The position numbers were made by a program, and so were the translations under genes. 64,000 nt of DNA, from assembly GCF_009371975.2 (NCBI RefSeq), contig NZ_VIKT02000008.1, forward strand, positions 355 through 64,354. The letters run 5' to 3'. Source of the stretch: Microcella pacifica. GTDB taxonomy: Bacteria > Actinomycetota > Actinomycetes > Actinomycetales > Microbacteriaceae. The notes below the pieces were generated by a model. It worked only from the letters and a program-made list of their open reading frames with translations, did no database searches and had not been told where the DNA came from. Below, in pieces: positions 27,118 to 50,206 of this stretch (position 1 is the stretch's first letter; each line of letters starts with the position of its first letter).

Positions 27118-28485
27118 CTACGCGGTCGCGACCGCCGTGAAGGCCGCGTCGTAGGCCTCGAGCGCGGTGGCGACCTGCTCGGGGGTCACGATGCACGGGG
27201 GCACGACGTGAATGCGGTTGTCGGCCGCGAACGGAATGACTCCGCGCGCGAGCAGCTCTTTCTTGAGCGCCCCGATCACGGCGGGGCCGACAGGCTCGCG
27301 CGTGCCCGCGTCGGTCACGAGGTCGAGCGCCCAGAACACGCCGAGCCCCCGCACCTCACCGATCATGGGGTGCTTCTCGGCGAGCGCCCGCAGGCCGGGG
27401 CCGAGGTGGTCGGCGCCGATCATCGCGGCATTCTCGATGATGCCCTCCTCGGTCATGGCATCGATCGAGGCGACGATGGAGGCCATCGCGAGGGGGTGAC
27501 CCGAGTAGGTGAGGCCGCCGGGGAACACGCGCTCGTCGAACTCGGCGGCGACGCGCGGCGACATGATGACGCCGCCCGCAGGCACGTAGCCAGAGTTGAC
27601 GCCCTTCGCGAAAGCGATGAGGTCGGGGGTCGCGCGCGACGGGTTGAGCGCCTCGCTCTGCCAGGCGAACCAGTCGCCCGTGCGGCCGAAGCCCGCCATG
27701 ACCTCGTCGGCGATCCACATGATGCCGTACTCGTCGGCGAGCGCGCGCACGCCCTCGAGGTAGCCGGGCGGAGGCAGGAGAACGCCAGCGGTACCGGGAA
27801 CGCTCTCGAGCAGGATCGCGGCGATCGTGCCGGGGCCTTCGGCCTGGATCGTGCGGCGAAGGTGCTGCAGGGCGCGCTCGGTTTCCTGCTCCGGAGTCTC
27901 GGAATGGAACTCGCTGCGGTACAGGAAGGGGCCGAAGAAGTGCACGTGGCCGGTCGCGTACTCGTTGGGCATGCGCCGCCAGTCGCCCGTCGCGACGATC
28001 GCCGAACCCGTGTTGCCGTGGTAGCTGCGGTAGGTGGAGAGCACTTTGTCGCGGCCGGTCGTGAGGCGCGCCATCCGGATCGCGTTCTCGATCGCGTCGG
28101 CACCGCCGTTCGTGAAGAAGACCTTCGCGAAGCCCTCGCCCGCGCGCTCGACGATGCGCTTCGCCGCCTCGCCGCGGGCAAGGTTCGCGGTCGACGGGGC
28201 GACCGTCGCGAGCTCGGCCGCCTGGCGCTGGATCGCCTCGACGACCCGAGGGTGCGAGTGCCCGATGTTGGTGTTGACGAGCTGGCACGAGAAGTCGAGC
28301 CACCTGGTGCCGTCGTAGTCCCAGACCTCACACCCGGCAGCACCAGCCACCACGAGCGGCTGCAGGGCGGCCTGGGCGCTCCACGAGTGGAAGACGTACT
28401 GCTTGTCGAGCGCGAGGGCGCGAGCGCCGTCGGCGGGGTCGAGGGCGGGTGCAACAGAGTGTGACCGGGTCTGGGTGTCGGTCAT
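27118..28485 (-). CDS. Class III aminotransferase, probable beta-alanine transaminase
   Basis: A 455-residue PLP-dependent omega-aminotransferase. The PLP lysine is in LIAFAKGVNSGYVPAGG, the cofactor Asp in MWIADEVMAGFGRTGDW, and the phosphate-binding region in FFTNGGADAIENAIRMAR. In pyrimidine breakdown such enzymes move the amino group of beta-alanine to pyruvate or 2-oxoglutarate, which fits the dihydropyrimidinase and ureidopropionase genes upstream. Substrate is inferred from context only. It is the last gene of the minus-strand cluster. A strong hairpin lies between it and the preceding binding-protein gene, so it may have its own level of expression. Confidence 0.85.
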   Translation of the reverse strand: MTDTQTRSHSVAPALDPADGARALALDKQYVFHSWSAQAALQPLVVAGAAGCEVWDYDGTRWLDFSCQLVNTNIGHSHPRVVEAIQRQAAELATVAPSTANLARGEAAKRIVERAGEGFAKVFFTNGGADAIENAIRMARLTTGRDKVLSTYRSYHGNTGSAIVATGDWRRMPNEYATGHVHFFGPFLYRSEFHSETPEQETERALQHLRRTIQAEGPGTIAAILLESVPGTAGVLLPPPGYLEGVRALADEYGIMWIADEVMAGFGRTGDWFAWQSEALNPSRATPDLIAFAKGVNSGYVPAGGVIMSPRVAAEFDERVFPGGLTYSGHPLAMASIVASIDAMTEEGIIENAAMIGADHLGPGLRALAEKHPMIGEVRGLGVFWALDLVTDAGTREPVGPAVIGALKKELLARGVIPFAADNRIHVVPPCIVTPEQVATALEAYDAAFTAVATA

Positions 28486-28546
28486 GGCTATCGATTCCTT
28501 GATGTCGGCGGTGACGGTGGCGAGATCATTATCCTCCCGGGATGCC

Positions 28547-28583
28547 CGAAGCCGGGCCGCGCACTCGCGCGAGCCCGGCTTCG
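28547..28583 (-). terminator. Hairpin between binding-protein and aminotransferase genes
   Basis: The arms CGAAGCCGGGC and GCCCGGCTTCG pair perfectly over 11 bp with a 15-base loop. It begins 13 bases past the stop of the ABC binding-protein gene, in the 111-bp gap before the aminotransferase. It could be a terminator or an mRNA-stabilising hairpin that lowers expression of the aminotransferase relative to the transporter. Confidence 0.55.
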
Positions 28584-28596
28584 AACCGTGAGGCGG

Positions 28597-29745
28597 CTAG
28601 TTGCCGCCCTCGAGCAGCTCGACCTCGATGGGCGTGAAGCTGTCACCCGTGATGTCGAACCCTTCGGCCTCGAGCTCGGCGAGCGCCTGCTCGATGTACT
28701 CGTTGGTCCACGCGCTCGCCGGCGGCTCCTCGGTGATGAGGCTCGCGCCCGACTCGTTGACGGCGCTCAGGGCCGCCGCGACGGTCGCGTCGAAGGCGGC
28801 CTCATCGATGTAGCCGATGCCGTTCGGGGCCGGCCAGATGAGCTTGTTGGTCTCGTTCACCATCCACAGCTCGTGGCTGGGGCCCCAGCCGGAGCCCGCG
28901 TCGATCGTGATCTGCGCCGCCTCCTCGGGGCTCTCGGCCGCGAAGATCCAGCCCTTGATGACGGCCTTGAGGAATGCGACGGTCGTCTCCTGGTAGTCGG
29001 CATCGCTCTCGAGCCGCTCGGTGTCGGCCCAGATCGCGTCCTGCAGCATGGCACCCACGGTGTCCTCGTAGCTGATGACCGTGAAGTCGTCGGCCGTGTA
29101 GAGCTCACCGGTCTCGGGGTCGACCGCCTCGAGCAGCTGCGCGTACTCGTTGTAGGTCATCGCCTGGGCGGCGTCGATGTCTCCCGCGAGGAACGCGTTC
29201 ATGTTGAAGTCCTGCGTGATGATCTCGACCGTGGAGGCGTCGAGGCCCTCCTCGGCCATGGCCGCGAAGATCTCCCACTCGTTGCCGAACCCCCACGAGC
29301 CGATCTTCTTGCCCTCGAAGTCGGCGACCGAGGAGATGTCTCCGTCGGCCCACGCAACCTGGAGGGTGCCGGAGCGCTGGAAGATCTGCGCGATGTTGGT
29401 GACGTTCGCGCCGGCCTCGATCGAGCCGAGCACCTTGGGCACCCAGGCGATCGCGTAGTCGACGTCGCCGTTGGCGAGAGCGTCCTGCGGCACGATGTCA
29501 CCACCCGACGGGATGATCTCGACATCGAGCCCGGCCTCCTCGAAATAGCCCTGCTCCTGCGCGGCGAAGTAGCCCGCGAACTGGCCCTGAGGCAGCCACT
29601 GCAGCTGCAGCGTGACCGGCGTGAGCTCCTCGCCCGAGTCAGCCTCCGGGGCCTCCTCGGTCGTGGCGCAGGCGGTGAGCACGAGCGCGGCGCTGAGGCC
29701 GAGCGCGCTGAACGTCGCGAGGCGACGATGGCGGTTGTTCATCAT
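28597..29745 (-). CDS. ABC transporter substrate-binding lipoprotein (NMT1/THI5-like)
   Basis: A 382-residue periplasmic-type binding protein held by a lipid anchor: signal peptide with lipobox LTAC at about residue 26. LQLQWLPQGQFAGYFAAQEQ is the classic NMT1/SsuA-type start, followed by GLDVEIIPSGGDIVPQDAL. Relatives bind thiamine-pyrimidine precursors, riboflavin, hydantoins or similar ring compounds. Given the catabolic genes beside it, a pyrimidine or hydantoin ligand is likely but not shown. The gene lies after the ATPase and two permeases and is separated by 83 bp from the second permease. Confidence 0.87.
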   Translation of the reverse strand: MMNNRHRRLATFSALGLSAALVLTACATTEEAPEADSGEELTPVTLQLQWLPQGQFAGYFAAQEQGYFEEAGLDVEIIPSGGDIVPQDALANGDVDYAIAWVPKVLGSIEAGANVTNIAQIFQRSGTLQVAWADGDISSVADFEGKKIGSWGFGNEWEIFAAMAEEGLDASTVEIITQDFNMNAFLAGDIDAAQAMTYNEYAQLLEAVDPETGELYTADDFTVISYEDTVGAMLQDAIWADTERLESDADYQETTVAFLKAVIKGWIFAAESPEEAAQITIDAGSGWGPSHELWMVNETNKLIWPAPNGIGYIDEAAFDATVAAALSAVNESGASLITEEPPASAWTNEYIEQALAELEAEGFDITGDSFTPIEVELLEGGN

Positions 29746-29828
29746 GTGCTGTGTCCTTTCGTGTTCTCGACGGTGCTGGTGTGGTGCAGGGTCGGCCCCG
29801 AGCGTGTCGGGGACCTCGTGTGGTCACG

Positions 29829-30638
29829 TCACCGTCGACGAGAGACCAGTCGTTCGAGCCCCGAGGCGACGAGCGAGAACGCCAGCCCGAGGATGATCGC
29901 GGCGACCACATAGGCCCACGCGCGCGGGTACGCGCTCGAGGCCGCCGAGGTGGAGATGAGGCCGCCGAGGCCGCCGCGCGGGCCGCCAAAGTACTCGGCG
30001 ACGAGGGCCGAGATGACGGCGAGCGAGGAGGCGAGGCGGATGCCCGTGAAGGTGAAGGGCGCCGCCGTGCGCAGAGTGATGGTGCGCATGATCTGCGCAT
30101 TACTCGCGGCGTAGCTGCGCATGAGGTCGCGGTGCACGGGCTGCGTCTGCCGCAGACCCCGCGCGGTGTTCAGGAAGACCGGCACGAAGGCGGCGAGCGC
30201 CGCGATGAGCTGGCGGCCGGTCTGCGAGTCGGCGCCGAACATCGTGTTGAGGACCGGGGCGAGCGCGACGATAGGGATGACTGCGAGCGCAGCGACGATG
30301 GGAGCGAGCATCCCGTCGAGGGATCGGCGCGTCGACGCGACGAGCGCCGAAATGATGCCGATGAGGGTGCCCGCGACGAGGCCGACGAGGGCGTTGAGGC
30401 CCGTGATCGCGCCCGCACTCACCATCGACGGCCAGAACTCGACGATCTCGGCTCCGATCGCGGCCGGGCTCGGCAGCAGGTACGCCTCGACGAGTCCGCT
30501 GCCCGCGATGAGCTGCCACACGGCGACGACGCTCACCCCGAGCACGATCGGGGCGACCGCCCGCGCCGTCCCCCCGGAGCCCCACGCGGCCCCCGGGGGC
30601 CGCCCACGTGGCGGTGCGATCGTGGCCGCGCCCGTCAT
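29829..30638 (-). CDS. ABC transporter permease (second of two)
   Basis: A 269-residue BPD-type inner-membrane protein with about six helices. The EAA-like loop lies around MRSYAASNAQIMRTITLRTA, where the ATPase docks. The N-terminal 25 residues are Pro/Gly-rich and cytoplasmic. The start overlaps the ATPase stop by four bases (ATGA at 30635-30638). It differs from the other permease of the same operon, so the channel is probably a heterodimer, as in riboflavin- and HMP-type transporters. Confidence 0.88.
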   Translation of the reverse strand: MTGAATIAPPRGRPPGAAWGSGGTARAVAPIVLGVSVVAVWQLIAGSGLVEAYLLPSPAAIGAEIVEFWPSMVSAGAITGLNALVGLVAGTLIGIISALVASTRRSLDGMLAPIVAALAVIPIVALAPVLNTMFGADSQTGRQLIAALAAFVPVFLNTARGLRQTQPVHRDLMRSYAASNAQIMRTITLRTAAPFTFTGIRLASSLAVISALVAEYFGGPRGGLGGLISTSAASSAYPRAWAYVVAAIILGLAFSLVASGLERLVSRRR

Positions 30639-31459
30639 CGGTTCTCCACGCCTCGGGCACTCGACGCCGGCGCTCCCCCGTGCAGTGCCTCGCGCACGGC
30701 CGTGATCATCTCGAAGAACGCGCCGTCTTCGCGCAGGTCGTCGGCGCGACTCGCGGTGCTGCCGAGTGCCATCGGCACGACCGCAGCGATACGGCCCGGG
30801 CGTGGCGACATGACGACGACGCGATCGCTCAGGTAGACCGCCTCGGGGATCGAGTGCGTGACGAACACCACGGCGGCACCCGTCTCGGCACTGATGCGCA
30901 GCAGCTCCGTCTGCATGTACTCGCGCGTCATCTCGTCGAGGGCACCGAAGGGCTCATCCATGAGCAGCAGCTCGGGCTTCTTCGCGAGGGCGCGGGCGAT
31001 CGCCACGCGCTGCTGCATGCCGCCCGAGAGCTCGTCGGGGTAGCGGTCGCCGAAGTCGTCGAGGCCGACGAGCGCGATGAGCTCGGCGACCCTCTCGCGC
31101 GTCTCGACGCTGCTCGAGCCGTGCAGCTCCAGGGGCAAGGCGATGTTCGCGGCGACCGAGCGCCAGGGCAGCAGCCCTGCCTGCTGGAAGGCGATGCCGT
31201 ACTTCTGGTCGACGCGCGCCTGATGAGCACTCGTGCCGAACACCTCCACTGAACCGCTCGACGGGGTGTCGAGGTCGGCGATGAGCCGCAGCAGGGTGCT
31301 CTTGCCGCAGCCGGAGGGGCCGATGAGCGAGACGAACTCGCCCGGCTCGACCACGAGATCGATGCCGGAGAGCGCGACGACCTGCCCAGCCGCCGCCTCG
31401 AAGACCTTGTCGACGGCCGTCACGGTCACGGCGTCGGTGGTGATCACTGACTCGGTCAT
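30635..31459 (-). CDS. ABC transporter ATP-binding protein
   Basis: A 274-residue ATPase of the nitrate/sulfonate/taurine (SsuB/TauB) group. Walker A is GPSGCGKST (about 47-55), the Q-loop is [12 protein letters not shown], the signature is [15 protein letters not shown], Walker B is [13 protein letters not shown], and the switch His is in [16 protein letters not shown]. Start ATG 31459 overlaps the upstream permease stop by four bases, and its own stop overlaps the downstream permease start, so both neighbours are translationally coupled. Confidence 0.93.
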
Positions 31460-32391
31460 GATGCGTCCTCTGTGCGTCGATAGTTGCGGGCGAGAGCGCC
31501 CATGAGCGCGACCGATCCGGCGGCGATGAGCCCGAGCGCGATCGCGCCGAGGATCGGCGCCCAGGCCTTGGCGGGGTCGCCGCTCGCCTGGCCGGCGTAC
31601 TGGATGACGAGGCGCCCGATGCCGCCCTGCAGTCCCGTCGAGACCTCGGCCACGACGGCGCCGACGACGGCGTTCGCTGCAGCGAGACGCAGTGCCGGCA
31701 GGAGGTACGGCACGGCGGCCGGTATGCGCAGGTAGCGCATCGTCTGCCACCAGCCGACCGAGTAGCTGCGCATGAGCTCAAGGTGCAGTCGGTCGGGCGA
31801 CTGGAACCCCTTGAGGGCGCCGACAGCCACCGGGAAGAACGCGAGGTAGCTCGCGATGACGGCCACCGACATCCAGTCCTGCCACTCGAAGGCACCGATC
31901 TCGATGCGCGACCCCCAGCTCTTGACGACGGGGGCGAAGGCGATGAGCGGCACCGTCTGGCTGAGGATGATCCACGGCAGAGCGGCCGACTCGGCGAGGC
32001 GCCAGCGCTGCATGACGAGGGCGAGCAGCAGTCCGACCGTGACGCCGACGATCCACCCTGCCGCCGCGATGCCGAGCGTGAGACTTGCCGCGATCGCGAC
32101 CTCGAGCCACAGCACGCGCGCGCCCTCGGCCCGCGTCACGGGCTCGAACAGGCGGCCGGCGGTCTCCCAGATGTGCGGCATGGCGAGGTCGCTCGTGCGC
32201 GGCAGCACGCGCACCTCGCCGATCACGAGGCCGTCGGCCGGCCCGAGGAGCTTGTAGAGCTCCCAGAGCGCGGCGAGCGCGGCAAGCCCGAGCGCCCCGA
32301 AGCCCCACGCGCGAGCACGCGCCCGTGAGGCCGGGGGCGCCGTGCGCGTGCGTCGCGAGGGCGCACGTGCGACGGTGGCGGCCTGCATCAT
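31456..32391 (-). CDS. ABC transporter permease (first of two)
   Basis: A 311-residue permease with a basic N-terminal tail (about 1-30), one helix at 31-50, an extracytoplasmic stretch, and five further helices. The EAA-like loop is near residue 205-228 in ELMRSYSVGWWQTMRYLRIP. It resembles SsuC/ThiX-type permeases. ATG 32391 (or the adjacent ATG 32388) overlaps the TGA of the LLM oxidoreductase gene. It pairs with the permease at 29829-30638. Confidence 0.88.
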   Translation of the reverse strand: MMQAATVARAPSRRTRTAPPASRARARAWGFGALGLAALAALWELYKLLGPADGLVIGEVRVLPRTSDLAMPHIWETAGRLFEPVTRAEGARVLWLEVAIAASLTLGIAAAGWIVGVTVGLLLALVMQRWRLAESAALPWIILSQTVPLIAFAPVVKSWGSRIEIGAFEWQDWMSVAVIASYLAFFPVAVGALKGFQSPDRLHLELMRSYSVGWWQTMRYLRIPAAVPYLLPALRLAAANAVVGAVVAEVSTGLQGGIGRLVIQYAGQASGDPAKAWAPILGAIALGLIAAGSVALMGALARNYRRTEDAS

Positions 32392-33404
32392 ACCTTGGCC
32401 TGTTTGGAGCCGTTCACCGCCGGGATCACGTGCTCGCCGTAGACGCGCAGCGTCTCCTCCTTGTTGTCGTGCTGGAGGTAGCCCGCGAACTGGTCGACAC
32501 CGAGCTCGCGCAGAGCCTCGAGCTTCTCGATGTGCTCCTTCGCGGTGCCGAGCACGCAGAAGCGGTCCACGATCTCGTCGGGCACGAAGTCGACGTGGTC
32601 GTTGCCCGCCTTGCCGTGCGAGTTGTAGTCGTAGCTCTCGCGGCCCGCGATGTAGTCGGTGAGTGCGGTGGGCACGGTCGACCCTGCCCCGTGCTTGGCG
32701 ACGATGTCGGCGACGTGGTTGCCGACCATGCCGCCGAACCAGCGCACCTGGTTGCGCATGTGATCCCAGTCGTCCCCGATGTACATGGGAGCGGCCGCGC
32801 AGAACTTCACCGAGTAGGGGTCGCGGCCGGCGTTGTCGGCAGCGGTGCGCACCGACTCGATCATCCACTTCGCGATGTCGAGGTCGGCGAGCTGCAGGAT
32901 GAAGCCGTCGCCGACTTCGCCCGTGAGCTTCAGCGCCAACGGCCCGTACGCCGCCACCCAGACCTCGAGCTCGCTGCCGTGGCTCCACGGCAACTGCAGC
33001 GTCGAGCCGTTGTACTCCACGGGCCGCGAGTTGCCGAGCTCGCGGATGACGTGGATCGACTCACGCAGCTCGGCCAGCGTGGTGGGCTTGCCGTTCGTGA
33101 CGCGCACGGCGGAGTCGCCTCGACCGATTCCGCACGCCGTGCGATTGCCGTACATCTCGTTGAGCGTCGCGAAGACGCTCGCCGTGACCGTCCAGTCGCG
33201 CGTCGCGGGGTTCGTGACGAACGGGCCGACCGTGATGCGGTTCGTCTCGGCCAGGATCGCCGAGTAGATCACGTAGGGCTCCTGCCACAGGATGTGGCTG
33301 TCGAAGGTCCACACGTGACTGAACCCGTACTGCTCGGCGAGCTTGGCGAGGTGCACCGTGCGGCTGGCGGGCGGGTTGGTCTGCAGAACAGCGCCGAAAT
33401 CCAT
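32388..33404 (-). CDS. LLM-class flavin/F420-dependent oxidoreductase
   Basis: A 338-residue (beta/alpha)8 luciferase-like protein. It begins MDFGAVLQTNPPASRTVHLA and has EQYGFSHVWTFDSHILW, TRDWTVTASVFATLNEMYGN, and CGIGRGDSAVRVTNGKP, which carry the cofactor-pocket positions of the LLM fold. From memory it matches a subgroup (TIGR03842) named F420-dependent that travels with hydantoinase and aminotransferase genes. ATG 33404 has AGGAAGAG in front. It lies between the hydantoinase and the transporter and divergent to F420 biosynthesis genes. The likely job is reduction or oxidation of the ring substrate, such as uracil to dihydrouracil with F420H2; this is inference. Confidence 0.82.
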   Translation of the reverse strand: MDFGAVLQTNPPASRTVHLAKLAEQYGFSHVWTFDSHILWQEPYVIYSAILAETNRITVGPFVTNPATRDWTVTASVFATLNEMYGNRTACGIGRGDSAVRVTNGKPTTLAELRESIHVIRELGNSRPVEYNGSTLQLPWSHGSELEVWVAAYGPLALKLTGEVGDGFILQLADLDIAKWMIESVRTAADNAGRDPYSVKFCAAAPMYIGDDWDHMRNQVRWFGGMVGNHVADIVAKHGAGSTVPTALTDYIAGRESYDYNSHGKAGNDHVDFVPDEIVDRFCVLGTAKEHIEKLEALRELGVDQFAGYLQHDNKEETLRVYGEHVIPAVNGSKQAKV

Positions 33405-33433
33405 GGATGCTCTTCCTCTCGGTATTCCGGAAC

Positions 33434-34897
33434 TCAGACGAGGTACTGGCTCAGGCCGCGGCGCAGGTACTGCCCATGGCCGGCCCGCCCGTGGTAGGCG
33501 TCGTCCTGGATGACGACCGAGCCGCGGGAGATGACCGTGTCGACCTTCCCGTCGATCTCGAAGCCCTCCCACGCGGCGTGGTCCATGTTCATGTGGTGCT
33601 TCTTGCCCGTGGGGTTGCCGTCGTCGTCGACGTCCATGCCGATCGACGTGTGGCCGTTCGGGTCGTAGACGACGATGTCGGCGTCGGCGCCGGGAGCGAT
33701 GACACCCTTCTTGCCGTAGAGGCCGAACATGCGCGCCGGCGTGGTCGAGGTGATCTCGACCCAGCGCTCGAGCGTGATCTGGCCGGTGACGACCCCCTGG
33801 TACATGAGGTCCATGCGGTGCTCGACCGAGCCGATGCCGTTGGGGATCTTCGAGAAGTTGCCGAGCCCGAGCTCCTTCTGGTCCTTCATGCAGAACGGGC
33901 AGTGGTCGGTCGACACCATCTGGATGTCGTTGGTGCGCAACGACTGCCACATGTGGTCCTGGTGCCCCTCCGCCTTCGAGCGCAGCGGCGTCGAGCACAC
34001 CCACTTGGCGCCCTCGAAGGCGCCGTACTTCTCGCTCACGGCCCCGAGCTGCTCCTCGAGCGAGAGGTAGAGGTACTGCGGGCACGTCTCGCCGAAGACG
34101 TTCTGCCCGTGGTCGCGGGCGGCGGCGAGCTGCTCGACGGCCTGCTTGGCGCTCACGTGCACGACGTAGAGGGGCGCTCCCGTGAGGTTGGCGAGCATGA
34201 TGGCGCGGTGCGTCGCCTCCTCCTCCATCTGCCAGGCGCGGGCGACCCCGTGGAAGTACGGGTCGGTCTTGCCCTGCGCGAGCAGCTGCTCGACGAGCAC
34301 GTCGATCGCTGGCCCGTTCTCGGCATGCATCATCGTCATGAGCCCGGTGTCGGCGGCGACCTGCATCGCGCGGAGGATCTGCGCGTCGTCGGCGTAGAAG
34401 ACGCCGGGATACGCCATGAACATCTTGTAGCTCGTGATGCCCTCGTCGATGAGCTTCGGCAGGGCATCCAGAGCGTCGGCGTCGACGCCGCCCACGATCT
34501 GGTGGAACCCGTAGTCGATCGCGCAGTTGCCTGCCGCCTTCTCGTGCCAGGCCGCGAGCCCGTCGAAGACCTTCTGGCCGGCCGTCTGCACGGCGAAGTC
34601 GATGATGCTCGTGGTGCCGCCCCAGGCGGCGGCGCGCGTGCCGGTCTCGAACGTGTCGATCGCCGCCGTGCCGCCGAACGGCAGCTCCATGTGCGTGTGG
34701 GCGTCGATGCCGCCGGGGATGACGTACTTGCCCGTCGCATCGATGACCGTGTCGACCGAGCCGGAAAGGTCGTGGCCGAGCAGGGTCGAGCCGGGGCTGA
34801 GGACGGCGAAGATGGTCTCGCCGTCGACGAGGACGTCGGCCTGGCCGCGGCCCGTCGCGCTCACGACGGTGCCGCCGGTGATGAGTGTCGTCGTCAT
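33434..34897 (-). CDS. Dihydropyrimidinase / D-hydantoinase
   Basis: A 487-residue amidohydrolase that opens the ring of dihydrouracil or hydantoins. The binuclear metal site is visible: HTHMELPFGG, carbamylated Lys in ITSYKMFMAYPG, His in MMHAENG and VVHVSAKQA, and Asp in MVSTDHCPF. SRGSVVIQD and the C-terminal strand are typical. The protein stays close to family length. ATG 34897 overlaps the TGA of the nitrilase gene by four bases. Its product (an N-carbamoyl compound) is the substrate of that nitrilase. Confidence 0.92.
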   Translation of the reverse strand: MTTTLITGGTVVSATGRGQADVLVDGETIFAVLSPGSTLLGHDLSGSVDTVIDATGKYVIPGGIDAHTHMELPFGGTAAIDTFETGTRAAAWGGTTSIIDFAVQTAGQKVFDGLAAWHEKAAGNCAIDYGFHQIVGGVDADALDALPKLIDEGITSYKMFMAYPGVFYADDAQILRAMQVAADTGLMTMMHAENGPAIDVLVEQLLAQGKTDPYFHGVARAWQMEEEATHRAIMLANLTGAPLYVVHVSAKQAVEQLAAARDHGQNVFGETCPQYLYLSLEEQLGAVSEKYGAFEGAKWVCSTPLRSKAEGHQDHMWQSLRTNDIQMVSTDHCPFCMKDQKELGLGNFSKIPNGIGSVEHRMDLMYQGVVTGQITLERWVEITSTTPARMFGLYGKKGVIAPGADADIVVYDPNGHTSIGMDVDDDGNPTGKKHHMNMDHAAWEGFEIDGKVDTVISRGSVVIQDDAYHGRAGHGQYLRRGLSQYLV

Positions 34898-35742
34898 GGC
34901 TTCACCACCGCCGTGTAGGAGTCGGGCCGACGATCGCGGTAGAACTGCCAGTTGTCGCGCACCGTCTGGATGAGGTCGAGGTCGAGGTCGCGGATGAGCA
35001 CCTCTTCGTGCTCGGAGGAGCCGAGGGCGCCCACGTAGTTGCCCTGCGGGTCGACGACCTGGCTCGTGCCGTAGAAGAACACGGCGTCGTCGCCGTACTC
35101 GTTGTCTTCGAGGCCGACGCGGTTGGGGGCGAGCACGTAGTACTGGTTGGCGACGGCGGCGGCGGGCTGCTCGATCTCCCACAGGCGGTTGGAGAGCCCT
35201 GGCTTGGTCGCGTTGGGGTTGAAGACCATCTCGGCGCCGTTCAGGCCGAGCTCGCGCCACCCTTCGGGGAAGTGCCGGTCGTAGCAGATGTAGACGCCGA
35301 CACGGCCGACGGCGGTGTCGAAGACGGGGTAGCCGAGGTTGCCGGGGCGGAAGTAGAACTTCTCCCAGAACTTGTCGAGGTGCGGGATGTGGTGCTTGCG
35401 GTACGAGCCGAGGATGGTGCCGTCGGCGTCGACGACGACGGCGGTGTTGTAGTAGATGCCGGTGCCGTCCTCCTCGTAGATGGGCAGGATCATGACCATG
35501 CTGAGCTCTTTCGCGAGGGCGGCGAAGCGCTGCACGATGGGGCCGTCGGCGGGCTCGGCGTAGCGGTAGTACTTCGCATCCTGCGTGATGCCGAAGTAGG
35601 GGCCGTAGAACAGCTCCTGGAAGCAGATGATCTGCGCTCCGTCGGCGGCCGCGTCGCGTGCGAACTGCTCGTGCTTGTTGAGCATCGACTCCTTGTCACC
35701 CGTCCAGGTGGTCTGAGTGATGGCTGCCCGAATGGTGGTCAT
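34894..35742 (-). CDS. Nitrilase-family N-carbamoyl amidohydrolase (beta-ureidopropionase-like)
   Basis: A 282-residue carbon-nitrogen hydrolase. The triad is seen as Glu in IICFQELFYGPYFG, Lys in GSYRKHHIPHLDKFWEKFYF, and Cys in VGVYICYDRHFPEGWRELG. This arrangement is close to beta-ureidopropionases and N-carbamoyl-D-amino-acid hydrolases, which release CO2, ammonia and beta-alanine or an amino acid. ATG 35742 is chosen because AAAGGGGAAG stands before it. It is the first gene of the eight-gene cluster, and its stop overlaps the hydantoinase start. Confidence 0.9.
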   Translation of the reverse strand: MTTIRAAITQTTWTGDKESMLNKHEQFARDAAADGAQIICFQELFYGPYFGITQDAKYYRYAEPADGPIVQRFAALAKELSMVMILPIYEEDGTGIYYNTAVVVDADGTILGSYRKHHIPHLDKFWEKFYFRPGNLGYPVFDTAVGRVGVYICYDRHFPEGWRELGLNGAEMVFNPNATKPGLSNRLWEIEQPAAAVANQYYVLAPNRVGLEDNEYGDDAVFFYGTSQVVDPQGNYVGALGSSEHEEVLIRDLDLDLIQTVRDNWQFYRDRRPDSYTAVVKP

Positions 35743-35903
35743 GGGTGCTTCCCCTTTTCTTCGTCGAACTGGGGCCAGTGTGCGCCTCGAGCATTTCCGG
35801 CTCGTTTCGCCCAATGACGGATGCGTTACACGGTAGGCCGCAGGGCGCGTCTGGAGGCGGACGCGCGCAGATGAGCAGGGTCGTGCGCGGCTAGCGTGGG
35901 GGC
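35743..35903. promoter_or_regulatory. Divergent control region between catabolic cluster and cofD
   Basis: A 161-bp gap holds the start sites of both the minus-strand catabolic operon and the plus-strand cofD-fbiC genes. No regulator gene lies beside it. I see no clear inverted repeat for an operator. The shared gap would let one regulator act on both directions, but that is inference. Confidence 0.4.
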
Positions 35904-36890
35904 ATGAGGATCGTCGTGGTCGCCGGTGGTGTCGGGGGTGCGCGTTTCGTGCGCGGCGTGCGCGAGGAGGTGCAGCGCCACCGGCCGGGGTCGACGGTCG
36001 ACGTCATCGTCAACACGGGCGACGACTGGTGGCTGGCCGGCCTGCGCATCGCGCCCGACTTCGACTCGATGCTGTACACCCTGAGCGGGCAGAACGACGA
36101 GGAGCGCGGCTGGGGGCGGGTCGGGGAGACCGAGCGCGTATCGGCCGAACTGCACGCGTACGGCGTGGCGCCCGAGTGGTTCACGCTCGGTGACCTCGAC
36201 CTGGGCACGCACATCGCGCGCTCGGCCTGGCAGCGGGCAGGTGCCACGCCCTCAGATGTCGCGCGGCGCCTGCAGGAGCGGTGGCCGCTCGGCGTGACGC
36301 TGCACCCCGCGACCGACGAGGAGGTCGACACGCACGTGCAGCTCGCGGGCGACTCGGCTGGTGAGGTGCGCGAGCTGCACTTCCAGGAGTGGTGGACGCG
36401 CTACCGCGCCGCCCTGCCCGCCGCGCGCTTCGTGCAGCACGGCATCGAGCGCGCGGTGCCGTCCCCCGGCGTTCTGGATGCCCTGCTCGACTGCGACACG
36501 ATCCTCATCGCCCCGTCCAACCCCGTGGTGTCGATCGGCACCGTGCTCGCCGTGCCCGGCATGGTGGAGGCCCTCACGGCGGAGGCCGCGCCGATCGTGG
36601 GGGTCTCCCCGATCATCGGCGGGTCATCCGTGCGCGGCATGGCGGAGGCGTGCCTCTCGGCGATCGGGGTGCAGACGGATGCGGCCGCTGTCGCCCGCCA
36701 CTACGGTCTGCGCCGGGACGGCGGTCTGCTCGACGGCTGGCTCGTGGGGCTCGAGGACGCAACGGCGGTCGACGCGCTCGAGTCTGAGGGGTTCGCGGCA
36801 CGCGCCGTGCCGCTGTGGATGCGCGACCTCGACACCTCGGCGGCTCTCGCCGCCGAGGCGCTCGACCTCGCTCTGGCCTTGCGCCCCTGA
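35904..36890 (+). CDS. cofD: 2-phospho-L-lactate transferase (F420 biosynthesis)
   Basis: CofD (FbiA in mycobacteria) joins the phospholactyl or enolpyruvyl group to Fo. The 328-residue protein shows the nucleotide-sugar-like fold start VVVAGGVGGARFVRGV, then NTGDDWWLAGLRIAPDFDSM, the DLDLGTHI segment, and SNPVVSIGTVLAVPGM. All are family-typical and the length fits. It stands 42 bp before fbiC on the same strand and shares a divergent gap with the catabolic operon. Confidence 0.95.
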   Translation: MRIVVVAGGVGGARFVRGVREEVQRHRPGSTVDVIVNTGDDWWLAGLRIAPDFDSMLYTLSGQNDEERGWGRVGETERVSAELHAYGVAPEWFTLGDLDLGTHIARSAWQRAGATPSDVARRLQERWPLGVTLHPATDEEVDTHVQLAGDSAGEVRELHFQEWWTRYRAALPAARFVQHGIERAVPSPGVLDALLDCDTILIAPSNPVVSIGTVLAVPGMVEALTAEAAPIVGVSPIIGGSSVRGMAEACLSAIGVQTDAAAVARHYGLRRDGGLLDGWLVGLEDATAVDALESEGFAARAVPLWMRDLDTSAALAAEALDLALALRP

Positions 36891-36932: not shown

Positions 36933-39581
36933 GTGCGGACTGTGACTGCGTTCGACTTCACCCCCACGGCCTCGGCGCTGTCCCGCGCGCTCAAGCGCGC
37001 CGACTCTGGCGTGAGTCTGGATGCCACGGAGGCCGAGACGCTCCTGCACGCGCGCGGCGACGACCTCGACCGGCTCCTGACCGTCGCAAGCCGGGTGCGG
37101 GATGCCGGTCTCGAACGAGCGGGCCGCCCCGGCGTCATCACCTACTCGCGCAAAGTCTTCATCCCCCTCACCCACCTGTGCCGCGACCGCTGCCACTACT
37201 GCGTCTTCGTGCAGACCCCGAACCAGCTCGAGGCGCAGGGCAAGGCGCCGTTTCTCTCCCCCGACGAGGTGCTCGAGATCGCTCGGCAGGGTGCCGCGCT
37301 CGGCTGCAAGGAAGCCCTCTTCACCCTCGGCGATCGGCCGGAAGACCGCTGGCCCGCCGCGCGCGAGTGGCTCGACGCCCACGGCTACGACTCGACGATC
37401 GACTACCTGCGCTCCGTCGCCATCCGCGTGCTTGAGGAGACCGGGCTCCTGCCCCACCTCAACCCCGGCGTCATGACCTGGCAAGAGCTGCAGCGCCTCA
37501 AGCCCGTCGCACCCAGCATGGGCATGATGCTCGAGACCACGAGCCGGCGCCTCTACGAGACGCGCGGCCTCGCCCATTTCGGCTCCCCCGACAAGGACCC
37601 CGAGCTGCGCCTGCGCGTGCTCGAAGACGCCGGCCGCAGCGCCATCCCCTTCACGACCGGCCTGCTGCTCGGCATCGGCGAGACCTACGCCGAGCGCGTC
37701 GACGGAATGTTCGCCATCCGCGCGAGCGCCCGACGGCACGGGCACGTGCAAGAGGTCATCATCCAGAACTTCCGCGCCAAGCCGCGCACCGCCATGCGCG
37801 CCGCCGACGACCTCGAGCTGCAGGAGTACATCGCCGCCGTCGCCGTCAGCCGACTCGTGCTCGGTCCCGGCGCACGCCTCCAGGTACCGCCCAACCTCAC
37901 CGACGCCGAAGAGCTGCACCTCCTCATTCGCGCTGGCATCGACGACTGGGGCGGCGTGAGCCCGCTCACCCCCGACCACGTCAACCCCGAGCGACCCTGG
38001 CCGCAGCTCGACGAACTCGCCCGCCTCACCGCGGAGGGCGGCTACACGCTGCGCGAGCGCCTCACAGCCCACCCCCACTACGTGCGCGCCGAAGAACCCT
38101 GGCTCGATCCGCGCATCGTGCCGCACGTGCGGGCGCTCGCCGGGGACGACGGGCTCGCCGTCGAAGGGAGGCTGCCGCAGGGTATCCCGTGGCAGGAACC
38201 CGACCCCGACTGGGCGAGCAACGCCGGCACCGGCCGTACCGACCTGCACACCGCCATCGACACCGAGGGCCGCCGCACGACCGCGCGCAGCGACTTCGAC
38301 GACGTCTACGGCGACTGGGCCGAGCTGCGCGAGACCGTCGGCGATACGACGAGGCCGACCAGCGCATCCGCGCACGCTCCCGCCGTGAGCGACGGCGTGC
38401 GCGCCATCCTGCGCCGCGCCGAAGATGCCCCCGCCGGGCTCAGTGATGCCGACTACCTGGCCCTGCTCGAGGCGGACGGGCCCGACCTCGACGCGCTCGC
38501 CGACCTCGCCGACCGCGTGCGAGCCGACACAGTGGGCGACCGCGTCGGCTACGTCGTCAATCGCAACATCAACTTCACCAACGTCTGCTACACCGGCTGC
38601 CGCTTCTGCGCCTTCGCGCAGCGCCGCACCGACGCCGACGCCTTCACCCTCTCCATGCGCCAGGTCGGCGACCGCGTCGACGAGGCCTGGAACCTCGGTG
38701 CCACCGAGATCTGCATGCAGGGCGGCATTCACCCCGACCTGCCCGGCACCGCCTACTTCGACCTCGCACGCGAGGTCACAGCTCGTCAGCCGGAGATGCA
38801 CCTGCACGCGTTCAGCCCCATGGAGATCGTCAACGGCGCCGCCCGCACCGGACTCTCGTTCGCCGCATTCCTCACCGCCGCGAAGGAGGCCGGGCTCGAC
38901 ACGATTCCCGGCACCGCCGCCGAGATCCTCGACGACGAGGTGCGCTGGGTGCTCACGAAGGGCAAGCTCCCCACCGCCGAGTGGATCGAGATCGTCTCCA
39001 CCGCGCACCGGCTCGGCATCCGCTCCAGCAGCACCATGATGTACGGGCACGTCGACAACCCCAGCCACTGGGTCGGCCACCTGCGCACCCTCGCCCGCGT
39101 GCAGGACGACACGGGCGGATTCACCGAGTTCGTGCTCCTGCCCTTCGTGCACGCCAACTCGCCCGTGTACCTCGCCGGCGTCGCCCGCCCCGGCCCCACG
39201 GCGCAGGAGAACCGAGCCGTGCACGCCGTCGCGCGCCTCATGCTGCACGGGCGCATCGACCACATCCAGACCTCGTGGGTCAAGCTCGGCACCGAGGGCA
39301 CCCAGCTCATGCTGCGCGGCGGCGCCGACGACGTCGGCGGCACCCTCATGGAGGAGACCATCAGCCGCATGGCGGGTGCCGACAACGGATCCGAGAAGAC
39401 CGTCGCCGAGCTCGAAGACCTCGTCAGCGGCATTGGCCGCACGGCCTGGCAGCGCACGACCACCTACGGCGAACCCACCGCCGAACGCGTCGCCACCGCA
39501 CGCGCTCACCGCGAGTCGGGCTACGCGGCGACAGGCCGCCGCCTCGCGCTCAGCATCGCCGAGGTGCGCGAAGGCGCCTGA
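36933..39581 (+). CDS. fbiC: Fo synthase, CofG-CofH fusion
   Basis: An 882-residue radical-SAM enzyme that makes the deazaflavin Fo from tyrosine and the riboflavin intermediate 5-amino-6-ribitylaminouracil. The N-terminal CofG half has the cluster motif CRDRCHYC (residue about 80-87). The C-terminal CofH half has [15 protein letters not shown] (about 545-560) and [20 protein letters not shown]. The fusion order is that of actinobacterial FbiC. The frame starts at GTG 36933; GTG 36942 is an alternative. No strong ribosome site is visible. Confidence 0.96.
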
Positions 39582-39725: not shown

Positions 39726-39995
39726 GTGGCCCTGTCGCCGTGGATGAACAGCCTCATCGGCGTTCTGCTCGCCGTGGGCATCGCCGTCGCGCTCTACGCC
39801 TCGACCGTGCTCATCTGGAACCTGCTCGCCGAGCGCGCCGACGCCACGTGCGCGGCCCTCGTCGGAGACGACGGAACCCACACGGTCACCTCGATCTGGC
39901 GCGGCGGGCTCGCCTGGGAGTGCGAGTACGCGACCGACTGGAACCCTCGCGGCACGATCGTGCTCACCCCCGACGACCTCATGCGGTCCGGCTGA
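39726..39995 (+). CDS. Small membrane protein, unknown
   Basis: An 89-residue protein with one N-terminal membrane helix (about 8-33, SLIGVLLAVGIAVALYASTV) and a short extracytoplasmic domain with two cysteines (ADATCAALV, LAWECEYATDW) that could form a disulfide. AGGGGAGG lies seven bases before GTG 39726. It is not a known family. Its 3' end overlaps the cofC 3' end by 17 bases in convergent orientation. Confidence 0.68.
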   Translation: MALSPWMNSLIGVLLAVGIAVALYASTVLIWNLLAERADATCAALVGDDGTHTVTSIWRGGLAWECEYATDWNPRGTIVLTPDDLMRSG

Positions 39996-40578
39996 GCAAC
40001 GCCCGCGTCCGGGCTCCCAGAACGAGGGATGCCGCGGCCTCCAGCTGCTCGCGCGTGTCGATGTCACGGCGCAACCCGCTGAGCGGCGGCAGCTCGAGCT
40101 CGACGTAGCCCTCCCCGCGGTGCCGCGCGGCGGACGCCGCACCGAACCGCGCCGCGTGAGGCACCCCGGCGCGCGCGACGATGAGCGTCGTGCCCGTGCC
40201 CTCGGCATCCGGCACGAACGCCCGATCATGCCCGACCGCCACCGCGAAGGCCCGCGAGAGCTCGTCGGGCTGCAGTGCCGGCAGGTCGCCGAGCAGCACC
40301 GCTGTCGGCAGGTCGGGGTCGAGAACGGCGAGCCCAGCCTCGACGGCCGCGAGCAGCCCCCCGCCCGGATCGTCGACGACCCGCACACCCGGCAGCTGCA
40401 CGGGAAGGCCGCCCACGACCACGAGCTCACCGACCGCACTGGCCGCGCGCGCGGCCTCCACGGTGTCCAGGGCGATCGCACTCGCGAGCGCTGCGCGCTG
40501 CGCGGCGTCACCGATGAGACGGCTCTTGGCACCCGGCCCGCCCTTCACCGGGATGACGAGGGAGACGAGTGCGGGCAC
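39979..40578 (-). CDS. cofC: 2-phospho-L-lactate/phosphoenolpyruvate guanylyltransferase
   Basis: CofC (FbiD) activates phospholactate or PEP with GTP to feed CofD. The 199-residue protein begins SLVIPVKGGPGAKSRL, the nucleotide-binding loop of the family. It continues with VLLGDLPALQPDEL, the metal-binding Asp region, and FVPDAEGTGTTLIVA. GTG 40578 is the start. It is 10 bp after the transglutaminase gene and thus probably the last gene of the moxR, DUF58, transglutaminase operon, not co-transcribed with cofD and fbiC. Confidence 0.92.
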   Translation of the reverse strand: MPALVSLVIPVKGGPGAKSRLIGDAAQRAALASAIALDTVEAARAASAVGELVVVGGLPVQLPGVRVVDDPGGGLLAAVEAGLAVLDPDLPTAVLLGDLPALQPDELSRAFAVAVGHDRAFVPDAEGTGTTLIVARAGVPHAARFGAASAARHRGEGYVELELPPLSGLRRDIDTREQLEAAASLVLGARTRALLSRTA

Positions 40579-45996: not shown

Positions 45997-46788
45997 TCAG
46001 CCGTTGCGCAGGTCGGTATCCGAGCCGCGCGCCGCGCGCTCCAAGCGCCGACCCTCCTCGCGCGCCTCCGCCGTGCCGAGCGAGAACAGGTCGTCGACCG
46101 CCGCGCGATTGAGGGAGCGAGCGCCGGGGGCGGCAGGGTCGAGCAGGTGCGGCAGCCCGCGAATGACCGCGACGGGGAGGCCCAGCGCCTTCCGCTTGAC
46201 GAGGTCGCCGGCCGCCGCGAGCTCGTCACCGAGCGCCGGCGCGGTCACATCGAGCAGTCGGCCCTGCGCATCAGGCTGCCCGCGCAGGTCATCCAGAAGG
46301 CGCACCCCGCTGCCGCCGATCGCGATATCGGTCTGGCCTTCTCGCCAGGCCCGCCCGGCCGTGTCGGTGATGATGACGCCGACCTCGCCGCCGACAGCAG
46401 CGCCGACAGCCGCACGGATCGCGGCAGCGCTCGCGTCGGGGTCGAGCGGCAGCAGCAGAACCGTGCCCTCAACGGTGTTGCTCGCATCGACCCCGGCCGC
46501 CGCCATGACGAGCCCCAGACGGTTCTCGACGATGCGCGTCACCCCTCCCGGGTGCACGCGCGTCGCGACGACGCGCACGGTCTCGTCGGTGATCGACTGC
46601 TCGCGATCGGCCGCGGCGACGATGCGGCCTTCGGCCTTGCTCACGATCTTGCTCGTGACGGCGAGGATGTCGCCCGGCTCGACGCCCTGCTGCACCGAGG
46701 CCGCTGCGATGATGGCGGGCAGGTCATCGCCCGGCGCGAACTCGGGCAGCCCGTCGAGCGCGAAGAGGGTGAGGCGCGGCGAGGTCAT
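45997..46788 (-). CDS. cofE: Coenzyme F420-0:L-glutamate ligase
   Basis: CofE adds gamma-linked glutamates to F420-0 with GTP. The 263-residue protein shows the family segments [38 protein letters not shown] and [20 protein letters not shown]. Mycobacterial FbiB carries an extra C-terminal flavin reductase domain; this protein ends after the CofE domain and so is the single-domain type. ATG 46788 is chosen. It lies after the small Cys protein on the same strand, apart from cofD-fbiC. Confidence 0.92.
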
Positions 46789-47023: not shown

Positions 47024-47055
47024 ATTTCCGCGCCGACAGCTCGCGTGCTCCATCG

Positions 47056-47849: not shown

Positions 47850-48089
47850 ACAGCTGACGGATTCCGCCGCCGTTCGTGACGGTGGCGATGCTCTCGAAGC
47901 TCACGGCCCGCAACTGTGCGCGCTGTCGGTAGCCCACTTCCTGTGCAGGGTTCTCCGTCGCGCGCCGCGGGCCGACGCCCCGTGCCGCTCGGCACTCTTG
48001 TCGAGCGCTCGCGACGGGCAGTCGGATGCTCGCATTCGGCTGCCCGTCACCTCCCCCACGGTCACTGCAGCAGTGAAGGAACACCCCTC

Positions 48090-48362: not shown

Positions 48363-48423
48363 GCGACGACGGTGCGCGGCTCGAGCGCCGTCGGGCGCCG
48401 GAGGTCATGACCGTTCAACGCGG

Positions 48424-49041
48424 TCAGCGACCCCAGGCGCTCGGCGGCGCCTGCACGACGGGCACCTCGTTGTAGGCCCAGTGCGCGCCGTTGTTGTACA
48501 TACCCGATGCCCAGCCTGAGAACCAGATGGCGCGCTCGACCTCCTCGGTCGGCGCGGACGCCTGGAGCGTCGCGACGATCTCGCCGTAGCGGGGCAACGT
48601 GTGCAGGGCCTCGGCCGCATTCTCAGCGGCGTCGACGAGGTGCACGTAGGTGCCCGTCCCTCCCCCGCCGCCCGAACCCCAGCCGTTGTTGAGCGGGTTG
48701 TTGCGCGTCCACCACGCATCCACGTAGTTCTCCTGGCGCATCCAGCGGGTCACGACCGTGACGTTGCTGTCGGTGAGGGGGAACTCGCCCATGAGCAGCA
48801 CGAGCTTCGCCCAGTCGTGGTTGGTGCCGCCGGCGATGAAGGTCTCGTATCCGGGAGTCGCCCCGAAGTCGTCGCGCATGACCTCGGGCGCGTCCACCGA
48901 TGCCCGTACGACGAAGGACTGCGCATTGGCGGTCGCGAACTGCTCGAGCTCCTCCTCCGCTGAAGGCGGAGTCGCTCCCGCGGCGAGCAGTCCCACGCAG
49001 ACGGCCATGAGCCCTGCGAAGACTCCACGTGTCGCCGTCAT
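48424..49041 (-). CDS. Secreted protein with hydrolase-like fold, unknown
   Basis: About 205 residues from ATG 49041. A signal peptide is clear (GVFAGLMAVCVGLLAAGATP). The mature part includes VVTRWMRQENYVDAWWTRNN, PLNNGWG and a Gly run, then VHLVDAAENAAEALHTL. The Glu in RQEN and the NNPLN segment recall secreted muralytic or lysozyme-like proteins, but I cannot assign a family. A longer frame begins at GTG 49113 with 24 more residues; I prefer the shorter one because it gives a normal signal peptide. Confidence 0.6.
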   Translation of the reverse strand: MTATRGVFAGLMAVCVGLLAAGATPPSAEEELEQFATANAQSFVVRASVDAPEVMRDDFGATPGYETFIAGGTNHDWAKLVLLMGEFPLTDSNVTVVTRWMRQENYVDAWWTRNNPLNNGWGSGGGGGTGTYVHLVDAAENAAEALHTLPRYGEIVATLQASAPTEEVERAIWFSGWASGMYNNGAHWAYNEVPVVQAPPSAWGR

Positions 49042-49180
49042 GCGCGGCGATCGACGGGTCACCGAGAGTGCGCGCGTGCGTGCGCGCGCAGAAGAATGTC
49101 GGCCCCCAGTCACAACGGGAGAGTGTACGCGCCGCGGCCGTGAGCTCCCGTCCTCAGCTGGGAGTCCGCCGATTGTCGCC

Positions 49181-50206
49181 TCAGCCGAGGGCGCGCAGGC
49201 GCGGCGCGAGATCCCGCTCGAAGAGCTCCAAGAAGCGCCGCTGATCGTGACCGGGCGCGTGGAACACGAGGTGGTTCATCCCGTAATCGACGTACTTCGC
49301 CACCTCGGCGACGACCTCATCCGGGTCGCTGCCGACGATCCAGCGCTTCGCGATTTGCTCGATCGGCAGCGCGTCGGCGGCCTTCTCCATCTCGACCGGA
49401 TCGGTAATGTCGTGCTTCTGCTCCTTGCTGAGCGACAGCGGCGACCAGAAGCGCGTGTTCTCGAGCGCGGCATCCGCGTCGGTGTCGTAAGAGATCTTGA
49501 TCTCGATCATCCGGTCGAGATCCTCGAAGCGACGACCGGCCTTCTCGGCGCCCTCGCCGACCGCGGGGATGAGCTCGTCCGTGTACAGCTCGGCGCCCTT
49601 GCCCGAGGTGCAGATAAACCCGTCGCCCACGCGACCGGCGAAGCGCGCGACCGTCGGGCCACCCGCGGCGACGTACACCGGCACGGGGGTCTCGGGGCGG
49701 TCGTAGATGTTCGCATCCTGCGTGAAGTAGAACTCGCCTCGGTAGCTCACCCGCTCCTCGGTCCACAGCTGGCGCATGAGCTCGATGGACTCGCGCAAGC
49801 GCCCGAGGCGCTCCTTGAACGCCGGCCACTCCTGCTCGCCGGCACCGCGGAACCCGGTGGCGATCTCGTTGAGAGCCTCGCCTGTGCCGACGCCGAGGAA
49901 CACACGGCCCGGGTAGAGCATCCCCATCGTGGCGAATGCCTGCGCGATGACCGCCGGGTTGTACCGGAATGTCGGCGTCATGACGGAGGTGCCGATGCGG
50001 ATCGACGAGGTGCGCTCCCCGACCGCGGCCATCCATGCCAGGGAGAACGGTGCGTGCCCACCCTCATGCCGCCACGGCTGGAAGTGGTCGCTCACCGCGA
50101 CGCTCTCCATGCCGTGCGCTTCCGCAGCGACGGCGATCTCGACGAGCTCGCGCGGATCGAACTGCTCAGCCGAAGCCTTGTACCCGAGGGTGAGGGGATG
50201 CGTCAT
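49181..50206 (-). CDS. fgd: F420-dependent glucose-6-phosphate dehydrogenase
   Basis: FGD oxidises glucose 6-phosphate to 6-phosphogluconolactone and reduces F420 to F420H2, the main supply of reduced cofactor in mycobacteria. The 341-residue protein matches FGD1 closely by memory: [58 protein letters not shown], and [18 protein letters not shown]. The Trp-His pocket (WRHEGGH) and phosphate-binding Lys are kept. It starts four bases after coaD stops, so the two are co-transcribed. Confidence 0.95.

Follow-up and report, generated by a model that had tools for sequence, protein, structure and literature searches.

The stretch of the Microcella pacifica genome analyzed here (assembly GCF_009371975.2, contig NZ_VIKT02000008.1; "the window" denotes this whole stretch of 64,000 nucleotides) contains a catabolic operon in which a gene for an oxidoreductase of the luciferase-like monooxygenase (LLM) class stands next to the gene for a dihydropyrimidinase, with genes for the synthesis and reduction of the cofactor F420 close by. 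We consider it likely that this LLM protein represents an F420H2-dependent dihydropyrimidine dehydrogenase, non-homologous to the known enzymes PydA and PreTA, which would serve a reductive pyrimidine pathway that is ordinary in its other steps, the F420 being either synthesized or salvaged. The first-pass annotation had already proposed such a replacement, and what we observed on the sequences upheld it, with some exceptions given below: the gene content of the operon and of a genome in which no PreA over cut-off was found, the conservation of the operon (a dihydropyrimidinase partner in 80/80 close and 17/20 more widely spread loci), the co-occurrence with F420 synthesis or import, in which FO synthase and a predicted importer alternate, the apparent swap for preT-preA in Leisingera, and the sequence and predicted fold of the protein, which are Mer-like and have F420 enzymes as nearest relatives.

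The source genome (2.72 Mb in 62 contigs, completeness 99.99%) has Microcella and other Microbacteriaceae as its closest named relatives. Profile searches of the window proteins placed the catabolic operon on the minus strand (27118-35742), where the genes are transcribed in the order CN-hydrolase (amidase), dihydropyrimidinase, LLM protein, permease, ATPase, permease, NMT1/THI5-type binding protein and aminotransferase. The cofD and fbiC genes are located on the plus strand, divergent from the operon, with 161 bases between the start codons of cofD and the operon, and cofC, cofE and fgd follow beyond fbiC on the minus strand, all no more than 15 kb away; cofC is arranged tail to tail with fbiC, and TgpA-, MoxR- and OmdA-type genes are scattered among cofC, cofE and fgd. 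All genes named in the first-pass annotation (nitrilase-like protein, dihydropyrimidinase, LLM protein, transporter, aminotransferase, cofD, fbiC, cofC, cofE and fgd) were thus recovered with clear family scores. Its statement that the F420 genes diverge from the operon applies to cofD and fbiC, but not to cofC, cofE and fgd, which share the operon's strand. Because only the former two are divergent and the latter three lie past fbiC, the F420 genes flank the catabolic operon and are not interleaved with it, as had been stated.

In the proposed pathway, uracil and probably also thymine would be imported by the THI5-type ATP-binding cassette (ABC) transporter. The LLM protein would then reduce the C5=C6 bond with a hydride from F420H2, in the place of the dihydropyrimidine dehydrogenase; reaction, substrate and direction are all predicted. 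The dihydropyrimidinase would open the ring, the CN-hydrolase would release ammonia and CO2 from the carbamoyl group, and beta-alanine or beta-aminoisobutyrate would then lose its nitrogen to the aminotransferase. The cofactor would be produced by CofC, CofD, FbiC and CofE and reduced by FGD, the presumed electron source, and many relatives that lack FO synthase would obtain FO or F420-0 through an ABC importer.

The LLM protein consists of 338 residues, has PF00296 as its one Pfam match and belongs to family TIGR03842 with a score of 575.4 bits (cut-off 295.45). This family, which takes its name from CPS_4043 of Colwellia, is an NCBIfam hypothetical equivalog, "LLM class F420-dependent oxidoreductase", without an assigned reaction, and no paper naming it was found in the open-licence literature searched. 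The closest proteins by sequence and predicted fold are the F420-dependent Mer and other F420-binding LLM enzymes, and all of the top 15 PDB entries in a fold comparison of the predicted model are F420 enzymes. The protein is nevertheless distinct from Mer: it scores 134.8 bits on the Mer model, far under the cut-off of 276 bits, and several residues that are invariant in TIGR03842, as listed from 143 distinct sequences kept out of 177 after a length filter, are different in the Mer chain aligned with it (E42, R95, S98, R101 and Y153). No methanopterin pathway is implied. In one Microcella relative (G022, L052:9654-10666), the LLM gene is broken into two overlapping frames, by either decay or a sequencing error.

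RutA, the uracil monooxygenase of the Rut pathway that depends on flavin mononucleotide (FMN), cleaves the ring by oxidation and is not known to require a dihydropyrimidinase. It has in common with the window protein that it is an LLM protein of pyrimidine breakdown, and one may suppose that the latter also uses FMN, or FMNH2 and oxygen in the manner of RutA, and that the nearby F420 genes are coincidental or serve some other F420 user. We regard this as very improbable. The RutA family TIGR03612 is absent from the 23 NCBIfam matches of the protein (E-values up to 0.001), RutA structures rank below F420 enzymes in the fold comparison, and F420 synthesis or import genes occur in 77 of 79 LLM carriers and beside the LLM gene in several arrangements and two phyla. 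The identification as a RutA-like oxygenase was rejected, both for the missing RutA match and because the dihydropyrimidinase would stand idle. The genome codes for further LLM proteins, namely one of the MsnO8 type (L004:1171-2421, 381 bits), one of the TIGR03560 F420 type (L005:1417-2406, 272 bits) and a weakly Mer-like one (L002:1480-2454, 108 bits), so F420 may have further users. These three match families other than TIGR03612 (E-values up to 1e-25); TIGR03612 itself was not run against the genome.

A dihydropyrimidine dehydrogenase encoded elsewhere in the genome had been regarded in the first-pass annotation as speaking against the proposed replacement, and none over cut-off was found: the best match to PreA (NF006183) in the source genome reached 33 bits versus a cut-off of 335. 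PreA exceeded the cut-off in only 2 of 396 Actinomycetota genomes, neither of them an LLM carrier. PydA and PreT-PreA combine a dihydroorotate-dehydrogenase-like FMN domain with iron-sulphur clusters and receive electrons from NAD(P)H or ferredoxin, whereas the window protein is Mer-type with PF00296 only. A ferredoxin-type form of the classical dehydrogenase is PydAc (PMC7332683). In their own operons, PydA or PreT-PreA occupy the slot of the LLM gene beside the dihydropyrimidinase and carbamoylase genes, which in Thalassospira are joined by aminotransferase and MmsA genes.

Taken as a whole, the operon resembles a reductive pyrimidine pathway in which one component, the first enzyme, appears exchanged. 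The dihydropyrimidinase scores 520 bits on TIGR02033 (cut-off 393), and its closest solved chains include 1yny, a D-hydantoinase, and 3sfw, a dihydropyrimidinase; it may also act as a hydantoinase. The amidase scores 181-186 bits with N-carbamoylputrescine amidases and with beta-ureidopropionases of the fly and other organisms, values that do not separate these two classes, and no more than 104 bits with N-carbamoyl-D-amino-acid hydrolases (D-carbamoylases). For the aminotransferase, the nearest solved chain is taurine:2-oxoglutarate aminotransferase (6jix, 356 bits), and the binding protein has four PDB matches, including a formylaminopyrimidine-binding protein (3ix1, 51 bits) and THI5. The ABC ATPase is 52-54% identical to the ATPases of two alphaproteobacterial preT-preA clusters.

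To follow the neighborhood among relatives, we used the best 80 of 593 confirmed LLM matches (named loci), in all of which the dihydropyrimidinase gene is located directly upstream of the LLM gene on the same strand. For a broader view, 20 of the 79 LLM carriers in the phylum sample were hand-picked for spread; a dihydropyrimidinase gene lies within approximately 10 kb of the LLM gene in 17 of them, accompanied by a carbamoylase of the nitrilase type in 10 and of the M20 type in 7 cases. An NCS1 symporter is present in 6 of the 20 contexts, a THI5-type ABC binding protein in 8 and an MmsA-like gene in 5. Because carbamoylases and carriers belong to differing families, the LLM gene stays while partners of the same role are exchanged.

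The link to F420 genes is likewise recurrent. Of 20 extended loci of relatives, 18 belong to Microcella itself; 17 of them have the operon facing cofD, while the eighteenth (L055) stops inside the amidase gene. Of the 61 named loci with full 10-kb flanks, 42 have one or more genes for F420 biosynthesis or import within 10 kb (Microbacteriaceae 31/47, Micrococcaceae 3/3, Demequinaceae 2/2, Cellulomonadaceae 2/2, no family label 4/4, and 0/1 each in Ornithinimicrobiaceae, Nocardiaceae and Nocardioidaceae), compared to a chance neighborhood of about 1-2% by rough arithmetic that assumes one F420 region per 2.72-Mb genome. One could still argue that the Microcella arrangement arose by accident, through a single ancestor in which the F420 genes merely came to lie next to the LLM operon. 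In line with this, cofD is absent from the 20 kb seen in two loci of other families of the same order (G032, G037), and 19 of the 61 full-flank loci lack any F420 gene within 10 kb. Yet the same two gene sets recur in different arrangements in Cryobacterium, Demequina, Actinotalea, Arthrobacter, Diaminobutyricibacter and Alphaproteobacteria, and the importer, CofD and CofE are all encoded in G032 and G037; we therefore consider an accident extremely improbable. These two genomes had been taken up as possible F420-free LLM carriers, which was rejected for the same reason.

The supply of the cofactor was followed across genomes by counting matches up to E-values of 1e-60 for FO synthase and 1e-20 for CofD and CofE (weaker matches remained uncounted), and the importer was scored in whole genomes by matches over cut-off to TIGR03868, the binding protein of a putative F420-0 ABC transporter. 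In the 396-genome sample, the LLM gene is present in 79 and FO synthase in 243 genomes, the latter in 70 of 79 LLM carriers versus 173 of 317 non-carriers (Fisher p = 6e-9, kinship ignored). Together, 77 of these 79 carriers contain F420 synthesis or import genes (70 FO synthase, 2 importer, 5 CofE), and in the other 2 none of these three was found. Three LLM-free Microcella genomes (G005, G013 and G014; 99-100% complete) are also without FbiC, CofD and CofE.

For the named loci, 48 of the 80 carriers were searched for FO synthase (L102 and L103 were not included), which was present in 17 and not found in 31. The importer was over cut-off in 35/35 carriers without FO synthase (these 31 plus G032, G037, G262 and G305), and among the 17 named carriers with FO synthase there were one match over cut-off and two weak ones. 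A second, less clean set yielded the importer in one (G017) of nine carriers without FO synthase, comprising seven from the phylum sample and the Microcella genomes G007 and G017, and in two (G016, G021) of 17 Microcella carriers having FO synthase. Overall, the importer is present in 36 of 44 carriers without versus 3 of 34 with FO synthase. The best tree of the 48 named carriers implies at least 10 changes in FO synthase; six independent pairs on supported branches differ in it, and the importer differs in the opposite sense in five or six of them and never in the same way (sign test p 0.03-0.06). These patterns suggest that LLM carriers tend to have either FO synthase or the predicted F420-0 importer, the one in place of the other.

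Of the 35 importer carriers without FO synthase, 24 have CofD, and the 11 lacking CofD all have CofE. From this we read three cofactor routes at the level of gene content: full synthesis, salvage of FO and salvage of F420-0. In genomes that retain CofC and CofD, the cargo of the importer may be FO. Among carriers of the uracil-type operon, the putative F420-0 transporter (TIGR03868/TIGR03869) tends to stand in for FO synthase, and it often adjoins the operon. In Cryobacterium (L099, the one locus tested with TIGR03868 and TIGR03869), both models are matched over cut-off by the ABC genes, which lie between cofD and a MocR-type regulator gene, and the regulator gene faces the amidase gene.

Outside of the Actinomycetota, plasmid contexts of Alphaproteobacteria were examined in hand-picked records, 2 of 10 from Leisingera and 5 of 40 from other genera with a near hydA relative. 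On the plasmids of Leisingera caerulea and L. aquaemixtae, a cofG-cofH-cofD-cofC-cofE-npdG-LLM block faces the genes pntA, pntB, aminotransferase, PydC (Zn hydrolase), hydA and an NCS1 symporter; the Leisingera LLM protein is also a TIGR03842 member (506 bits), and that of Paracoccus is annotated as one. In four of the five other hydA contexts (Qingshengfaniella, Roseinatronobacter, Azospirillum and Thalassospira) we found preT-preA. Compared with the operons of Qingshengfaniella and Roseinatronobacter, the L. caerulea proteins are 47-52% (TetR), 69-74% (PydC) and 72-74% (HydA) identical, and the alphaproteobacterial preT-preA operons differ from that of Leisingera chiefly in the first step and the carrier. 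This suggests that in Leisingera preT-preA were swapped for F420 synthesis, an F420 reductase and the LLM gene among related neighbors. A Caballeronia plasmid retains a C-terminal LLM remnant next to a Zn hydrolase gene and pntB.

A further connection comes from Arthrobacter sp. MYb23, where genes for a UriT-type uridine carrier (606 bits, cut-off 600), a PF04227 protein (378 bits), a PfkB kinase, dihydropyrimidinase, LLM protein, M20 carbamoylase, FGD (633 bits), cofD, cofE and a CofGH fusion run in one direction. We take PF04227 to be the pseudouridine-5'-phosphate glycosidase family, and these pseudouridine-type salvage genes, which would release uracil, point to uracil as the entry to the pathway. 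Glycosidase and kinase genes were found in none of the other loci among the 209 collected, so the link is a single case. In MYb23 itself, both genes are doubled around the carrier gene (L141:2115-8124), the copies being 99.7-100% identical.

The LLM protein could also be F420-dependent but act on another ring or position, such as hydantoin, a modified pyrimidine or another heterocycle related to dihydropyrimidinase substrates. Hydantoins are also opened by dihydropyrimidinases, and the solved chains closest to the window enzyme bear the name D-hydantoinase. Some NCS1 carriers transport hydantoins. In Azoarcus, a relative of the Leisingera NCS1 carrier is encoded beside hydantoinase/oxoprolinase genes, so this carrier is no proof of uracil, and in the fifth hydA context, that of Sulfitobacter, an N-carbamoyl-D-amino-acid hydrolase gene and neither reductase accompanies hydA. 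There may also be other kinds of catabolic clusters that combine F420 with an LLM protein, as illustrated by plasmid 3 of Variovorax sp. PBL-E5 (L200:4916-15475), which carries genes for an amidohydrolase, a CN-hydrolase, a different LLM protein, a GTP-binding protein, npdG, RidA and cofG-H-D-C-E and may code for an F420-dependent route for another nitrogen compound. Against a non-uracil substrate stand the amidase, which is of the ureidopropionase/N-carbamoylputrescine type and not a D-carbamoylase, and the gene for an MmsA-like (methylmalonate-semialdehyde-type) aldehyde dehydrogenase, which tblastn located within 10 kb in 24 of the 61 full-flank loci (one confirmed, 683 bits), as expected for malonate or methylmalonate semialdehyde. 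The Leisingera exchange and the single MYb23 case also favor uracil. A D-hydantoin cluster was set aside on the amidase type and the preT-preA swap, and we consider a substrate other than uracil, in its broader sense, rather unlikely.

Several points weigh against an F420H2-dependent dihydropyrimidine dehydrogenase, beginning with the fact that its support is entirely by association. The importer was not over cut-off in 8 of the 44 carriers without FO synthase (G007, G156, G197, G214, G225, G264, G296 and G357), which slightly lowered our confidence. Five of these have CofE, and G007 (82% complete) has CofD; in the fragmented genomes G156 and G197, neither FO synthase, importer nor CofE was found at the thresholds used, CofD not having been searched. 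Several of the eight exceptions are fragmented, but G214, G225 and G357 are assembled in 20-40 contigs. The joint absence of LLM and F420 genes from G005, G013 and G014 may represent one event because the genes are neighbors. The named loci are skewed to Microbacteriaceae, no dihydropyrimidinase gene was seen within about 10 kb in three of the 20 phylum contexts (L183, L186 and L187), and the cof-npdG-LLM block of Paracoccus alcaliphilus, beside an ABC transporter, is without an annotated dihydropyrimidinase across the 45 kb inspected. To these are added the 19 unlinked loci and the Azoarcus and Sulfitobacter contexts mentioned above. An npdG-like F420 reductase was found in none of the 61 actinobacterial loci, and the linkage of FGD is inconstant. 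Finally, in the predicted model of the LLM protein, the stretches 36-41, 96-105 and 263-267 have predicted local distance difference test (pLDDT) values <50.

The coordinates of the region are given in Table 1. The amidase probably starts with the ATG at 35742. The window CofC is 48% identical to a CofC of Cryobacterium, and CofE (45997-46788) covers positions 8-261 of 449 in the ligase model PRK13294, the C-terminal part of the two-domain enzyme being missing.

Table 1. Features of the catabolic operon and the F420 genes in the window, with the scores or signals on which each assignment is based.
Feature	Position	Strand	Basis
Class-III aminotransferase, candidate beta-alanine/beta-aminoisobutyrate transaminase (PydD role)	27118..28485	-	PRK06062 726 bits; 6jix 356 bits
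NMT1/THI5-type ABC substrate-binding protein	28597..29745	-	PF09084 133 bits; 3ix1 51 bits
ABC permease	29829..30638	-	PF00528 83 bits
ABC ATPase (approximate start)	30635..31405	-	PF00005 116 bits
ABC permease	31456..32388	-	PF00528 71 bits; ATG at 32388/32391
LLM-class oxidoreductase TIGR03842, proposed F420H2-dependent dihydropyrimidine dehydrogenase	32388..33404	-	575 bits, cut-off 295
Dihydropyrimidinase/D-hydantoinase (start between about 34885 and 34918)	33434..34918	-	TIGR02033 520 bits, cut-off 393
CN-hydrolase, beta-ureidopropionase/N-carbamoylputrescine amidase type	34894..35742	-	PF00795 214 bits
Region between divergent start codons (operon versus cofD)	35743..35903	.	start codons
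Candidate operator, GAAA-N7-GAAA direct repeat as read on the minus strand	35794..35808	.	sole match in 64-kb window
cofD, 2-phospho-L-lactate transferase	35904..36890	+	TIGR01819 302 bits, cut-off 257
fbiC, bifunctional FO synthase CofGH	36933..39581	+	PRK09234 1460 bits, cut-off 1018
cofC, 2-phospho-L-lactate guanylyltransferase (approximate start)	39979..40578	-	TIGR03552 119.9 bits, cut-off 105
cofE, F420-0:glutamate ligase, single domain (approximate start)	45997..46788	-	TIGR01916 216 bits, cut-off 181
fgd	49181..50206	-	TIGR03554 624 bits, cut-off 420

The candidate operator between the divergent genes recurs among relatives: 37 of 77 named loci have it upstream of the amidase gene, where 0.85 would be expected from these loci, and it is present in 14 of the 17 intergenic regions of Microcella; the pattern was chosen post hoc, after inspecting the same upstream stretches. 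Our guess is that the repeat is the site of a MocR-type regulator, a gene for which was not found in the window. In several Microcella relatives, the operon includes a photolyase-type gene, which precedes the aminotransferase gene and follows that of either the LLM protein or the binding protein (L037:4602-5819 and L040:7338-8540, PF03441 confirmed in both; similar open reading frames in L042, L044 and L046). FO is a known photolyase antenna, so this link between photolyase and F420 genes may be non-accidental.

No description of F420-dependent uracil reduction was found in the open-licence literature searched, which leaves out most subscription papers. A precedent is a putative F420-dependent "luciferase family" yanthine reductase, proposed from gene neighborhood for the breakdown of 8-oxopurines (uric acid) in Chloroflexota (PMC12507026). 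In the sections of that source available to us, the idea is the same, an F420 LLM enzyme replacing a PydA-like reductase before ring opening, but it concerns purine breakdown, and these sections contain no proposal for uracil.

Taken together, the data allow a wider reading, which we hold tentatively and at slightly less than even chances: in many Actinomycetota, pyrimidine degradation would be F420-dependent, with TIGR03842 as the common dihydropyrimidine dehydrogenase of the phylum, and lineages free of FO synthase would retain the F420-0/FO importer mainly to feed TIGR03842, so that part of the soil and water microbiota would rely on cofactor leaked by neighbors; the whole module would also exist as a self-contained unit on alphaproteobacterial plasmids. 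If our assignment of the LLM protein is true, a large LLM family now without a reaction would gain one, and a second, non-homologous uracil-reducing enzyme would be added, with a third electron donor besides those of the NAD(P)H- and ferredoxin-linked PydA enzymes. It would also suggest how Actinomycetota, with PreA in so few genomes (2/396), perform reductive pyrimidine breakdown without the classical dehydrogenase. The import of F420-0 or FO would acquire a physiological reason, and F420 itself a clear role in the ordinary nitrogen metabolism of free-living bacteria.

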